Positions 11,164 to 54,727 of a DNA stretch of 64,000 bases are shown here, in pieces (the first letter of the stretch is position 1; each line of letters opens with the position of its first letter). Made by a program: the position numbers and the translations under genes. The notes below the pieces were generated by a model that saw only the letters and a list, made by a program, of their open reading frames with translations, was not told where the DNA came from and did not search any database. The stretch is taken from the NCBI GenBank assembly GCA_021904315.1, contig CM038918.1:7207349-7271348 (forward strand), written 5' to 3'. Source of the DNA: Sphagnum magellanicum. Lineage: Eukaryota > Streptophyta > Sphagnopsida > Sphagnales > Sphagnaceae.

Positions 11164-14100
11164 TCAAGAGGCACCAGCAACAAGTACCGCAAAGGGAGGC
11201 CCATTGTAGCACAATGAGTCATGAGAAGTCTGGGACTGAATGACTGCTGCACCCAGTAATGTGTATTGGCCAGGCACTAAGAAGCAAAGAGCAAAGCGGT
11301 GCACCACTTCTCCAACTGCACCCACCTCCACCTCCATTCCATCTAAAGTTCCTGCAAAATACATGCACACCCCCCCATGTCAAAACATGCCCTGAGGCTC
11401 CATAGATGTCCCTTTAGATCCAAACCTTCACCCCCTGTCTGAGGTAATTCTTAATGCTGGTGTAAAATAAGTGGCAAAACTCACCAGCCCAAAGCACAGT
11501 TGGCTTGCTGCCAATAGCACCCAAGCAGCTCGTGCCAGCTACATCTCGGCATGTGACACTCAGTGTCATTTTCATTGCCTCACTTGTGTTATTTCGAACA
11601 AGCATTTCAATGAGAGCCAATTCCCTCACAGCAATGCCACCACCACCTTTACTTTTTGTAACAGCACTGTCCTCCTCTGCTTCAACCTTTGAAAGGCCAA
11701 CCCTATGTGAATTCGGGTAGCTCTCTGGAGATGTGTCCTCACAGGTACTATTCTGTGTTGCAGAGGTTTTGACAAGCCGGAAACCAAATGTCAGAGGATC
11801 AGGCAATAGTATTTTTAGAGCAGATGCCTGCAACGCTTCTCTTAGAGCATCCTTTATTGGCAGAACTCCTGCACTGTTCCGACCAGAGTGCCATTTAACA
11901 CATATTCTTGAACTGAGCTCCTCTATGGCAGAGTTCAGTTCTGCTTTCGCTTCTCGGTCTGCAACATCCTTGGACATGGCATATTGTTTACTCAAGGCAT
12001 CTTTCCGGACTGAAGCCCGTGCGAGGGAGGCTTTATCCAGGCCTGCTAGCTTAAACCTTTCCAATTGTATGAGCACACAGGCAGAGTAATCACGTTCAAT
12101 TCTGGTTCTTGGGTACAAGCACTCTCCATCCTCTGTCAACTTCTCACTTTCACTACCATCTTTTCTGCTCACTGTAATTTCAAAAAGTACATCTGTTGTG
12201 TTCCAGAGTTCCAGCTCCAACAGTCGGAGACCCCAACTCCCTCTGTATGGGTCCATTTTCACTAAGCTTTCTCCATTTTCTGCTGCTGCATCCTTGCTGC
12301 AAATGGGCTCCACAATTGCACTGCTGATATTGGCCGCCACTTCCATGGACAGCAACCTGGCCTGCACCAGACACAAACCTCTCTGCACATGTAGCTGCAG
12401 AGGCAAAGCAACGCGTCTACCTGGTGATATCTCCTCTCCCTCCTGTGACAATGGTCCAGCATAGTGAATGACCAGCATTGGACTTGCTACATCATTGGAA
12501 GGCTTAACTGTATTCACACGTAAATCTGGCTCTGGAGTTGGGGAGCCTGCCTTCAGCACCACTGGCACAACTATAGTGGCACCTGGTAATAGCGGTAGAG
12601 CATCCTCTAAGATACTGTGCCCAATTGAGACAACGTTCTGCTGCTGTTTTCCAGTTAAGGCCAAGTGAGCCTCCACAACCGGAACTACACCAGCATTAGA
12701 AAGGCTGATTTGCACTTCACGAATCTCACCCTCGTACAGAACAGCAGCTCCTTCACCCCCCACCACTCGTGCCACCAAAAGTGGCAATGGTTGAACAACT
12801 TCTACCTTGTTGGACAAAGCTGCATGGTGCACTCGATGCCAACTTTTGAAAGGATCTGCTAAGGTAGTCCCCTTGACCATTTTACCCTCAACTACATCTT
12901 CAAACAAATGCTCTGTTATCATCCCAAAGCATTTGACAATGCAGCCCCGGATCATCAATGTGCCCACTGAAAGGGGCATTCCTGATAATGACAACAGTTG
13001 GCCAGCACTCGGAGGCAAAGTTACAGACACGGTAAAAGCATCAAAGTGTCCATGCTCCACAGACAAAGAAATGCTTTCAACAAACACCTCAAATGCACAA
13101 GGGTTAGCCAACTCTACTAAAACCTCCACCGGCTCACCTACCACCCAGATCACTGGCAGTTTTTCATTGGAGTCTCCTTTTGCAATGAAGGGTGTGTATA
13201 TGAAAGGTCCACTGGAAGCAGGCCCCATCCACCACTCCTTGTCAGTTGTGCGTTTCACAATCTCTCTTTCTGCTGGCATTGGTGGGTAGGAATGCAATCT
13301 TACAAAGGGGAGTACAGCATAGGAGGAGCGAGTGCCTGAAGGCAGGCGATGGGCAGCCATGGAGAGGGCATTGGCAAGACCCAGTTGAGAATGTGGAGTG
13401 ATGAGGGGATAGTGGTGTCTTAGTAGCTGAGCAGCTGCACTCCACGCTGCCATTGCATCGCCTGCCCGCACTGCAGCTGCAAGCATGTCCATGAGCACAT
13501 CCATTTGCAGCGTGCTCCATTCACCTCCTTGCTTATCTTGGCCATCAACAAGAGAGTTGCTGGACTTCATTTCACATCTGTAATAGTGGGCACAGACAGA
13601 CATGACTTGCAAAGAGCTCACAGCTGCCCAATGACTGTTTTGTTGCTTGTACAGCAGAGCAACTTGGCGTGCATAGAAAGCTGCCTTGCGTTCATACCCA
13701 AGAGCACCAAAGATTCCAGCTGCTTCAACATTCACCACCAGCCGGTCATTAGCATCCATCAAAGTCTTGGAGCCCTCAACAGCACCCACCACCAAATCCA
13801 CAACATCTCTGGCCAACTCCTTTCTGCTGCACAAAAATCGAGCTAGCTTCAAAGTTGACTCCAATTCAAAAGACAATGCCGTTGCCCTGCGGTAAAGCTG
13901 GATTGCCTCCATGTACAGGAACTGAACCTCCTGCTCCAGCAGCTCATCCTTCATCCCCAAACGTTCCAGCACAAGAGCACACACATGGCCTTCAACTGCT
14001 CCTGCATGCCATAGGAGATCAGCTGTAAGGCGAGCCAATTCAATGGCAGTGGCATAGTGAGCATTTGCATCGGAAGGTGAGCATGCAAGAAGACAATAGT

Positions 14101-14761
14101 CGCCTATCGTCTTTTGCACGCGTCCCAGCTTCCTCTTCTTATTGACCTCATCAGAGTTGAGAGAGGTTTGAGAATCCAGGGGAGTAGTGAGACCCGCAGG
14201 CTTGAGATGCAGCACCCAGCTCTCAAATGCCATAAGCAACGATGCAGCAAAATCCCGCATCAAGGTTTGCATGTGGAACTCCAGATTCTGACGGTCTGTG
14301 GATGGGAACATTACCAGAAATTCTTTCTTCTTCTCGTCATCCTGCCTCATTTGAGCGTGGGTTGGATGGAAAGCGAAGCACCTGGTCACCTGGGCAGATG
14401 GGTACGCTCGGCACATCGACAGGAACTGCTCATACGCACTCCCCAGATCAGGCGAGAGAGGACAATGACACAGACCGATGACACCCAGTATCTTCCTCTG
14501 CGCTTGGAAATCCTCCCAAGGGCTTTTGGCAGCACCGCCCACCAAGAATTTCAGCAGCAAGCTCCCGCTCTCCCACGGCTGCAGCGCGAAGGGGCTCTTC
14601 TGGTGCTCCGTGTAGTAAGGGTTTACACTGGCAAGCGAGATTCGCGTGTGCTGCACAAGCATGGACACATAATCCCGCAGCTGAGCTGCCGGCATCTCCC
14701 CGACTGCCAGGACTGCCACTCGGATCATGCTCCCGCCCTCTACTCTTAAATCCGTCTCCAT
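11164..14761 (-). CDS. TRS120: TRAPPII tethering-complex subunit TRS120 (TRAPPC9-like)
   Basis: TRS120 is a subunit specific to TRAPPII, which acts on Rab GTPases at the Golgi/TGN; in plants it is needed for cell-plate formation and polarised traffic. Two coding exons lie on the minus strand, 14761-11485 and 11351-11164. They are separated by a 133-bp GT-AG intron that splits a glycine codon in LWAG. Together they give 3465 nt and 1154 aa, close to the roughly 1190 aa of flowering-plant TRS120. The N-terminus (MIRVAVL, YYTEHQKSPF, LGVIGLCHCP, KRKLGRVQKTIGDY, DANAHYATAIELARL) and the C-terminus (HRFALCFLVPGQYTL, GPPFAV) match plant TRS120 closely. The ATG at 14761 gives the expected MxxD..IRVAV start. 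The helical repeat half is followed by a beta-rich C-terminal half. No frameshift or in-frame stop is seen. Confidence 0.97.
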
Positions 14762-15218
14762 CTCTTCTCTTCTAACCCTAAATCCTCCTTCCCTCCCTCC
14801 CTCCTACACCTCGTCCTCCTCCTTCTCCTCCTCCTCCTGCGTCCTTAACCAAAACCACCACAGCAGCAAGCGCACTCCATCCTAAGTTCAGCTCCAGCGT
14901 TCCTCCTACCCGCAATTCTCCTGCACTCAGTCAATCCTGTTCATCCTTCCGGGCCTTGTGTGTCTGTCAACACAAGCAACGCAACGACAAGAGCACAGCA
15001 GCAATTTTAGGGTTTGTTTTCTGCCCGCAAGAGAACGAAGCTGGACACTTATTGATACCCTCCGGTTACACTTCCGGGGATCAAAACTAAGGATCAGAGT
15101 CAGGCCCAAAGTAAGGATTACTTTTAACTTTAGTACCACCAAGAGTCTGTGTCCTCAAAGCCCTACTTGTATTATTTTATGCTACTGTGGTGTGCCTAGG
15201 GTTTCATTTAAGGATTTT
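14762..15218 (-). promoter_or_regulatory. TRS120 5' leader and promoter-proximal region
   Basis: On the minus strand the first 120 bp upstream of the ATG are GA-rich (plus strand: stacked TCC/CTC repeats at 14770-14850), typical of a plant 5' UTR. Telo-box motifs occur at 14774-14781 (AACCCTAA), 15007-15015 (TTAGGGTTT) and 15197-15204 (TAGGGTTT). Plant genes for basic cell functions often carry telo-boxes near their start sites. The exact transcription start is not visible. Confidence 0.5.
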
Positions 15219-23142: not shown

Positions 23143-23559
23143 CTAAAATTTAACAATGATATAAACAATGATGTAAGCGACTATGTTGGTGCAAACGATA
23201 ATGTAAACGACTTTCTTGGTGCAAGTGATAATGTAAGCGATGATGTAGGTGACTATGTTGGTGCAAACAATGATGTAAATGACTATGTTGATGGAAGTGA
23301 TAATGCAAATGATGATGCAGGTGACTATGTTAGTGCAAATGATGATGTAAGCAACTATGTTGGTGCAAGTGATAATGCAAACGATGATTTAAGTGATTAT
23401 GTTGGTGTAAGTGATAATGCAAACGATGATGTAAATGATTGTGTTGGTGCAAGTGATAATGCAAACGATGATGTAAGTGACTATGTTGGTGCAAATGATG
23501 ATGTAAACGACTACATTGGTGCAAATGATAATGCAAGCGATGATACAAACGATGGGTGA
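23143..23559 (+). repeat. 42-bp codon-periodic minisatellite with an open acidic frame
   Basis: About ten decayed units built on 14 codons that read SDNANDDVSDYVGA on the plus strand. Some units are shortened by whole codons. That frame is open for 138 codons, from just after TAA at 23140 to TGA at 23557. It contains no ATG, so by itself it is not a gene. The opposite strand reads as His/Leu-rich repeats and is also open in part. It could be an exon of an undetected or dead gene, or a satellite whose period happens to be a multiple of three. Confidence 0.8.
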
Positions 23560-51661: not shown

Positions 51662-54600
51662 TTAAATCTGGGTGGTGGGCACCTTGTAACCATGTTCCTT
51701 GCCATTCGCAATGAGAGCTTTCACTGTAGGCAAAGCAAAGGGATCCCCCTCTTCAATCACCTTCAAAACAGTGCCTCCCCCAGTGAAAAGATAGTACTTG
51801 GGACTTTCAAGTGCCTTCTGATACAGCCCAGGATGCAAACTGTCAACCATTGACAAACAACCAACAAAAAGCTTGTCAGATTTTCTGACCCATTCTCTGC
51901 AGCAATTGGGGCTTTATGTTTAAAAGCATCAGAATTTGGGTGCCAGTTGCATGCTGTAATCCCCAAACAAATGTGAAAACCAGAAAGTCATCATTTGTTC
52001 ATTACCTCTTGAATTCCTGCAGGGTATCCCCACCACCGAAAAACTTCTGGGCAGCACGATTGCAATCAATCCTTTCATCCATTTTGGAAGTGCCATGCCA
52101 GAAGTATGGCATTAAGCCCATTACTGCATTGACAAAGATGGTCCTTGACGAGTCTACGGCCTCAACCACATGTGGTTCATCAAATGACGAAGGATCCACA
52201 TCAACAACATAGCTATACTCCTTGCCTGGAGTGAAGTCCTGTACACACACAAGAAAAACTTGGGATTCTAAACAGAGGTAACTGATGCCATTAAGTTGGC
52301 TACAATGAGGATGTAATGAATTTCTAGAATGCTCTGGAAATGAGCAGGCCACACATATTATTGAATTGCAAGTTTCTATTGATAAGTCCAAACCTTGATG
52401 CCAATTGTGCGATATTTTCCTTCAATTCGTGCCTCAAGTGTATCTGATTCAACCAGGAATGGCAGCTCTACAATTTTGTGGCCCACCTTATCCTCCTCAA
52501 CCAGCTCTTTTGCTAACTGAATATCTGAATCCTGCATCACTTTGTGGGAACAGATTTCTGCATTAGCAACTGATGCTTCAACATACATGAACGACTACAA
52601 TCAAGGTTTCCAACATTTTCAGGCTGTTCTTCTAGTACACAAAATGACTTCATGAACACCTCTGTCAGGAAACCCTCAATGATATATCAAAATGGACCTG
52701 TTACTCATACTGTGAAGAAGCTTTACCTCCACACCTCGAATCTTGACACCATATTTGGCACAAAGGAAGGTGTTGTATATTAGGCCACCAAGAATGAGCC
52801 TGTCCACTTTCTTGTACATTGCATTTAATGGCCCAATTTTTGTGTCATACTTGGCACCGGCAACAATTGCAAGAAATGGCTTCTTTGGGTTCAGGATTTC
52901 TCGCACATGAGTCAGCTCATTCTGCACAGGGTAAGAATTTGTGAAGAATATTTTTAGCAAGCTAACATAGTAATAAAAGCACTACCATACTTCAATACCA
53001 AACCTGTTTCAATATGAGACCTAGCAGTTCAATACTGCAACAGTCAGTTTGCCATCATGACCACCTGTAAGACTACACTCATGATGAGTTTATGGATCAC
53101 ACACTGTTGAACACTAATCAGCACTTGCCCTGGACAAAAGCATGCATCAAATCTTACCATTCCAATCTGCACATAGACTTTAGGCACAATATGCTCAAAG
53201 GCTTTACATGCTATACAATTTTCCTTGTTTACACATTCAGAATCCTCCTGGTTACAGTTAGGAACTGTACCTGCATGCAAAGTCCAGCAAATGAAGGCAA
53301 GTACTTTGTGATGTGGTAAGTGGATGCATGAGGCTGCCAAGATCCAAATGCATCATTCACAAACACATCTGCTAGACCAGCCAGCTGCACTACAAAGCGT
53401 TCCATCTTTTCACCTTTGTCTTCTTCCCCCTGCAATTACATACTTCACATGCTTAAAAACCAGTTCCAAATGCATATTATGCAGCTTGCAATATCAAGCC
53501 CACATGCACAGAGGTGATTGCACAGAGTCACTTAGAATAATAGTCTCATACAAGGCATAGTGCATGAAGACCACCCATCAAAGTGATTTAGAAGCAGAGA
53601 CAGTACCATGTCAAGTCACAGATGCAAGCTCTGCAGCAACCAGAAAGGTTCAAAAGAAGATGGAGAAAAACAGTGAAACTTACTGCAAACCATCGGGTAT
53701 TCGGCAAGTAGATGCCACCAATCTTGCGTTCACGAAGATCATGGATAAGCCAATTAATGGAAGTGTCAATATCGTGAATGCCCTCATTGTCAGTCACATT
53801 GAATAAGGGGACAGCAAACTTGATGTGCAATTTGCGTTGCAAGTAGGCCACCACTGGATCAATTGTCTCATCATTGCGCTTCACAGTCAAAACTTTTGTC
53901 TTTTTGTCATATGGACGCCCGACATGAGTCATTATGATTGGCCTGTCAATGAAAGCAAAAGAAGCCCCCCCTCCCTTTTAATAAGAACAAAGTATCTGGC
54001 ATTGTGCATCGAAAGATATTGCTAATGTACTTTTTAAAAAAATTACAAGACTGCAAATACTGAGTCGACAATAAACAATTTAGGTATTTTCACATAGACT
54101 GCAAATTGACAAATGCAAGAGTGACAGGAGAGAACAAGATCTGGGTCTCACCTCCCACCACGTTCAATGATGTTGTACATGGTTGCCAATGTTACTTCAA
54201 TCCGATACTGATCCATTATTTTGCCTGAGTCCAATGCAGATTACCACCAGATAGATGATCAAAGCCCAAACTTATCTCAACAACAAACCTAATGCTTTTG
54301 TGGTGCAACGCTATCTCTATATACATAGCTCAAAATCTCTCCTAGTTCACACCACACATTAGCATGTGTAAACGCCACGAATCAATCAATCAACTGATCT
54401 GGGTGCAATCATCAATTAGTCGAATTTTTTTCATCTATGTTCCTTTTGCTTTAGTACTTCATATACTAAATCCTTATCCTTAAGAATAGGGTAGGGACTT
54501 ATACATATATATATGAGAAGAGTGTTTTATGGGGATATAGTTATTTATGGTTTACCTTTCTTCACAACATTGTGATCCACCCGGAGGAGCACAACTTTGT

Positions 54601-54727
54601 CCTTGAGGTCGGCATGTTGGAGCAGAGGCAGAGACGGATCCAAGAGCTCATGTCCATCCTCCTGACCCTCGGGTACCGTGTACCCCACTTTCCCCAGCCC
54701 TGGTGGGTATGGCACGTATGGCACCAT
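51662..54727 (-). CDS. divergent phosphoglycerate kinase-like protein
   Basis: PGK transfers phosphate between 1,3-bisphosphoglycerate and ADP. Minus-strand exons 54727-54556, 54224-54152, 53942-53684, 53429-53271, 52921-52727, 52531-52394, 52238-52006 and 51839-51662 total 1407 nt (468 aa, against about 400 for cytosolic PGK); all introns are GT-AG and phases agree. Kept PGK marks: LRVDHN (Asp51, Asn53; normally DFN), YRIEVTL (Arg65), THVGRP (His88, Arg91), LPNTRW (Arg165), FVNDAFG, AGAKYDTK (Lys245, Lys249), FVNAVMG (Asn369), GGGDT (400-404) and FTGGGT. Lost: the usual HRAHSS after NDAFG reads WQPHAST, so its arginine is Gln200. The roughly 40-aa N-terminal extension (many Pro and Gly, several acidic) does not look like a plastid transit peptide. 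It is clearly PGK fold, but not the ordinary plant type; activity is unproven. Confidence 0.88.

Follow-up and report, generated by a model that had tools for sequence, protein, structure and literature searches.

The window analysed here, a 64,000-nucleotide stretch of Sphagnum magellanicum DNA, carries on its minus strand (positions 51662-54727) a gene whose eight exons join in frame to encode a 468-aa protein of the phosphoglycerate kinase (PGK) family. PGK is a central enzyme of glycolysis and of the Calvin cycle and is commonly regarded as having a single conserved substrate site and, in plants, a single main evolutionary origin. The explanation that we consider probable as a whole is that the window gene encodes a PGK of a distinct type, called GSW type below, that it would have been acquired from a bacterium and have gained introns, and that its three copies would perform the PGK reaction in the cytosol of the moss.

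The window gene and its copies in the moss genome

The gene model consists of the following exons.

Exon 1, 54556..54727, minus strand: ATG start and LLRVDHNV motif, GT donor; length equal in the paralogue at locus L009
Exon 2, 54152..54224, minus strand: contains DQYRIEVTLATMYNIIERGG; length as in both paralogues
Exon 3, 53684..53942, minus strand: MTHVGRP and YLPNTRWFA; length as in both paralogues
Exon 4, 53271..53429, minus strand: VNDAFGSWQPHAST, the diagnostic motif; length as in both paralogues
Exon 5, 52727..52921, minus strand: AGAKYDTKI, with the nucleotide-side lysines; length as in both paralogues
Exon 6, 52394..52531, minus strand: length as in both paralogues
Exon 7, 52006..52238, minus strand: FVNAVMG and GGGDTLQEF; length as in both paralogues
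Exon 8, through the stop codon, 51662..51839, minus strand: SLHPGLY and FTGGGTVLK; acceptor 51839 as in both paralogues

GT..AG borders are found at all seven introns (7/7) and the paralogues agree with the model, so that the eight exons joined in frame to 468 aa in the initial annotation are borne out exactly; the odd PGK motifs quoted there are all present in the protein. A 487-aa model with an earlier exon-8 acceptor was dropped, since acceptor 51839 gives 468 aa, in agreement with both paralogues. With the 487-aa version as query, PF00162 (PGK) was the sole Pfam family found (E 1.5e-76; 258 bits against a cut-off of 27; profile positions 2-377 of 379), and the solved structures nearest by sequence were plain PGKs, 3uwd being at the top (E 2.6e-39). 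An NCBIfam search with that version returned a single match, far below its cut-off (176 vs 883 bits). The same protein, with exons 2-7 of equal length, is encoded at two other loci, and the window gene and the copy on contig C6 have a dN/dS of 0.10, which places the gene far beyond chance. Elsewhere in the window, a long minus-strand open frame (11414-14803) matches TRAPPC9/Trs120, and degenerate NANDDVSDYVGASDN-like repeats make up another open frame (23143-23559), probably a repeat array.

The moss genome (438,994,042 bases in 31 contigs) was searched for PGK loci. Three intact copies of the divergent type were found, on contigs C12 (the window), C6 (at 18.76 Mb) and C8. They encode 468, 464 and 474 aa, with identities to the window protein of 89% and 74% for the two others. 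Their seven intron positions are the same, and exons 2-7 are equal in length. The dN/dS between the window gene and the C6 copy is 0.104; the two comparisons with the C8 copy give 0.051 and 0.065, with synonymous sites near saturation. As judged from these ratios, the three copies are under purifying selection. A further locus on C7 (10230585-10232497) matches parts of exons 5, 6 and 8 of the divergent gene; a TGA interrupts two of these matches, and the locus is probably a decayed fourth copy. Ordinary PGKs are encoded at four loci, on C10, C16, C17 and C6 (at 12.06 Mb); they belong to the same family as the window protein but are only 29-30% identical to it. A decayed piece on C4 (7303048-7303227) resembles the ordinary gene of the C10 type.

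A bacterial-like protein in a plant assembly could point to contamination by bacterial DNA. This explanation is refuted by the introns and copies of the divergent gene, namely seven introns of spliceosomal type and the presence of three copies, with the same intron positions, on three contigs (C6 and C8 measure 25-26 Mb); the eukaryotic TRAPPC9-like gene lies, moreover, within the same window. We give contamination practically no credence. It might also be argued, from the C7 locus, where only parts of the protein match and stops are present, that the divergent copies are decaying or inactive. This seems very improbable in view of three intact frames, dN/dS values of 0.05-0.10 (the C8 comparisons being near synonymous saturation) and the retention of the catalytic residues.

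A bacterial PGK subfamily and the placement of the moss genes

Relatives were sought in prokaryotes, with one genome per species, using the motif V-N-D-A-F-G-x-W. The scan gave at least 118 loci; among the 118 matches listed, 111 encode relatives of the window protein with 46-65% identity, some of them cut by contig ends, and seven do not (L016, L049, L057, L089, L094, L117 and L129). The top relatives among the matches listed (64-65%) come from metagenome-assembled genomes labelled Desulfobacteraceae, Deltaproteobacteria, Desulfatibacillum, Proteobacteria or Pseudomonadota, followed by Nitrospirae (61-62%). The nearest relatives among these matches thus belong to anaerobic bacteria and not to the moss's own set of ordinary PGKs. 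From sequence comparison, these relatives are a distinct PGK clade, which we name GSW type after its mark, VNDAFGSWQ in place of the usual VNDAFGTAHRAH. Because the pattern scan had itself selected for W, a profile (A2) was added. With a threshold of E <= 1e-100, matches were obtained in 30 of 247 genomes from the phylum of G006 (G006 and G009 being already known), in 15 of 148 from the phylum of G001 (G001 and G008 being already known) and in one of 149 from each of the phyla of G016 and G021, the match being the centre genome itself in both cases. GSWQ was present in all of the 12 best-scoring Cloacimonadota loci (12/12).

Other scans yielded no GSW relatives among the matches listed. A peptide-pattern scan of genome contigs built on the single 487-aa protein gave 13 stretches, none of them a relative. 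With viral contigs, one scan gave 68 stretches without relatives, a second gave none, and a third gave five loci of 28-31% identity that are ordinary-like. In tblastn searches of plasmids and phages, made in part with the 487-aa version, none of the matches listed exceeded 33.3% and every record stayed below 60%. A contig labelled Altiarchaeales archaeon (L091) carries a Bacteroidota-like GSW PGK, which reflects either a transfer or a mislabelled contig. Some open frames, roughly 800 aa long, encode two successive ordinary PGK domains (L083, L017, L060, and on contigs C505 of G015 and C135 of G016); a few of them lie near a GSW gene.

Compared with ordinary PGK (PF00162; EC 2.7.2.3), the moss protein matches the family over its full length and has the same main catalytic residues. 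It is, however, only 26-31% identical to 11 ordinary PGKs from bacterial genomes, has SWQ for AHR with one residue deleted and NAVMGxxP for NGPMGVF(D/E), and carries extra residues before YLPNTRW. Its likeness to the bacterial GSW proteins (Desulfobacterota, Nitrospirota, Bacteroidota, Cloacimonadota and others) is much closer: besides the identity given above, 35 columns are diagnostic, two of which (S and W) were partly chosen by the scan pattern; all three moss copies agree with the GSW type in 33 of them, and SWQ, NAVMG and PNTRWF are among the diagnostic residues present. The moss copies differ from the bacterial proteins by their seven introns and by an N-terminal extension that is acidic and some 25 residues long.

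For tree building, 151 GSW proteins were thinned to 106 at 85% identity; 17 of the 111 pattern loci, whose products fell outside 400-560 aa, were excluded. In a quick tree of 124 rows, the three moss proteins group with seven bacterial rows (support 97), inside sets of 50 rows (95) and 65 rows (100). A careful analysis of 60 selected rows recovers the same group within the GSW clade (99/98), as does, with 100/96, a tree of 54 rows without outgroup. The seven nearest rows are mostly Desulfobacterota, one being labelled planctomycete. In the 60-row tree, GSW rows and moss copies together are separated from ordinary PGKs with 100/100 support. Approximately unbiased (AU) tests rejected the joining of the moss GSW copies to the ordinary PGKs, those of this genome being the only ones included (p 8.5e-5). 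Grouping of moss with Nitrospirota was borderline (p 0.045). Four arrangements were not rejected: bacterial GSW as a clade apart from moss, the outgroup then joining the moss branch (p 0.18); separation of moss from the 28 Desulfobacterota-Nitrospirota rows (p 0.18); moss with the Bacteroidota-Cloacimonadota set (p 0.18); and moss with the six nearest rows that remain once the planctomycete-labelled one is set aside (p 0.42). These p values should be read in the light of groups that were named after the tree had been seen and of a very long outgroup branch.

On this basis, assignment of the moss genes to the GSW clade is firm, the AU tests leaving their exact attachment unfixed. As the alternatives at p 0.18 stand, the case for the donor and for the direction of transfer is made by branch support and by the wide spread of the type among bacteria. 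The moss stem branch (0.41 changes per column in the quick tree, 0.56 in the 60-row tree) implies that a close donor is absent from the sample. The initial annotation had proposed a separate PGK clade, perhaps common to some bacteria, which agrees with the identities and diagnostic columns, and the window product indeed falls outside the ordinary PGK clade of this genome in a tree with bacterial and moss ordinary PGKs. Of the two origins it had offered, the AU test rules against retention of an old paralogue derived from the plant's own PGK, and gain by transfer, with introns acquired since, is the best-supported reading from the trees and introns, the exact branch being left unfixed.

The initial annotation also spoke of a third PGK type in a plant. 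The gene would not be the first divergent one of this kind, since maize ZmPGK5 precedes it in the published description (PMC7761438). As described there, ZmPGK5 and its angiosperm relatives resemble the moss protein as a third, divergent sort of plant PGK with a reported likeness to bacterial enzymes, and its authors also link it to a bacterial transfer; in ZmPGK5, however, PGK is joined to a methyltransferase domain, and four PGK motifs are missing (PMC7761438). In contrast, the window protein (487-aa version) gave no methyltransferase match, only PF00162. In a survey of transferred plant genes, the words 'phosphoglycerate' and 'PGK' are absent from the main text (PMC9667741). No description of the moss GSW gene or of the GSW subfamily was found in the parts of the literature consulted, which is no proof of absence from print.

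Active site and probable function

The active site was compared between the 106 non-redundant bacterial GSW rows and 15 ordinary rows (4 moss, 11 bacterial). Window residues R49, D51, N53, R65, H88, R91, R165, K245, K249, N369, D403 and T404 are identical in 106/106 GSW rows. The exception among the catalytic residues is the arginine of the HRAH motif. Human and window residues were equated by us from the alignment, so that window position 200, for instance, is taken to correspond to human Arg170. This position is R in 15/15 ordinary rows; among the 106 GSW rows, 101 have Q, four have R and one has G, and it is Q200 in the three moss copies. Beside it, GSW rows show a one-residue deletion, and NGPMGVFE is replaced by NAVMGxxP. 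In PGK, Arg122, Arg65, Arg170, His62, Asp23, Asn25 and Arg38 are reported as substrate-binding, and Arg65 and Arg170 as forming salt bridges upon closure, in the parts of the two sources consulted (PMC3900376, PMC7729029). The Arg-to-Gln change at the 3-phosphate-binding site suggests a changed affinity or regulation rather than a lost activity. Loss of human Asp218 together with Arg170 was also considered and dropped, because ordinary rows vary there too.

The distribution of the two types in bacteria bears on function. Of 78 Cloacimonadota genomes, 62 have the GSW type only (four of them as pieces), 10 ordinary PGK only, one both and five neither, although short PGK fragments occur in one of the five. 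GSW and ordinary PGK are thus nearly mutually exclusive across this phylum, to which G019 belongs; genome completeness was not given, so that absence from a single genome is weak evidence and the phylum-wide pattern strong. Since the GSW type is the sole PGK found in 62/78 genomes and GAPDH is matched in 61 of these 62, the PGK reaction is probably its task. A different situation is met in a set of 24 GSW-bearing bacterial genomes: 19 also have an ordinary PGK (at least 389 bits), so that in those the GSW protein need not carry out this reaction; three of the five without ordinary PGK have two GSW copies.

In the moss, the GSW protein most likely catalyses, like any PGK, the reversible transfer of phosphate between ATP and the carboxylate of 3-phosphoglycerate. 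Its N terminus is acidic (5-6 D/E and 1-3 K/R in 38 residues) and three ordinary moss copies have basic N-terminal extensions, a contrast that suggests a cytosolic location for the GSW enzyme. We infer reaction, location and expression alike. The idea that all ordinary moss PGKs are plastid-targeted was dropped: the C10 frame has MEKKKKS at its first Met and no in-frame transit peptide, and this copy may be an ordinary cytosolic PGK.

Origin and significance

Two other explanations deserve to be weighed. GSW proteins could phosphorylate a carboxylate other than 3-phosphoglycerate, the moss gene serving that reaction. The replacement of the Arg170 equivalent in 101/106 rows, with the adjacent deletion and the NAVMGxxP motif, would fit such a change, as would the ordinary PGK found alongside in 19/24 bacteria and a gene of one formyltransferase-like family following the GSW gene at eight pattern loci (L032, L038, L039, L053, L055, L093, L099 and L101; one representative tested by Pfam). 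However, the other substrate-site residues (D51, N53, R65, H88, R91, R165) are kept, the Cloacimonadota pattern with its GAPDH genes speaks for the PGK reaction, and the formyltransferase-like gene is not among the neighbours listed for six of the loci nearest moss. The bacterial gene neighbours, in general, point to no common pathway. A different substrate is on balance unlikely. Slightly less likely still is old vertical inheritance, by which early eukaryotes or plants would already have had the gene and other lineages would have lost it, without transfer into the moss line. That the root position of the GSW tree is not fixed leaves room for it, but paralogy with the ordinary moss PGKs is rejected by the AU test and the spread over bacterial phyla is patchy (in a sample without Cyanobacteria as a group). 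Moreover, the profile matches none of the 398 sampled genomes in the phylum of G789 (Pararobbsia), the Pseudomonadota, which is the phylum of the mitochondrial ancestor.

Acquisition from a bacterium remains the reading that we prefer. An ancestor of the moss would have received a GSW PGK gene from a donor most likely near Desulfobacterota; we infer both this donor and the direction of transfer from the trees. The gene would then have gained seven introns in the moss line and, once intron-bearing, have been duplicated to give the three intact copies that purifying selection appears to maintain.

A broader proposal can be put forward tentatively, as a possibility that we rate somewhat below even. 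The GSW type may be an unrecognised second class of PGK with a rebuilt 3-phosphate site, which would have replaced ordinary PGK in most of a bacterial phylum. The peat-moss line would then have captured it, and its three copies there would provide the cytosol with a bacterial PGK whose kinetics or regulation are unlike those of any plant PGK. Annotation is affected in any case, since Pfam calls both the moss protein and the bacterial GSW protein tested plain PGK. A bacterial subclass with an altered site, the sole PGK found in most sampled Cloacimonadota, has probably entered a peat moss and been retained there in three copies, which makes it testable whether a plant can carry out the PGK step with a foreign enzyme.
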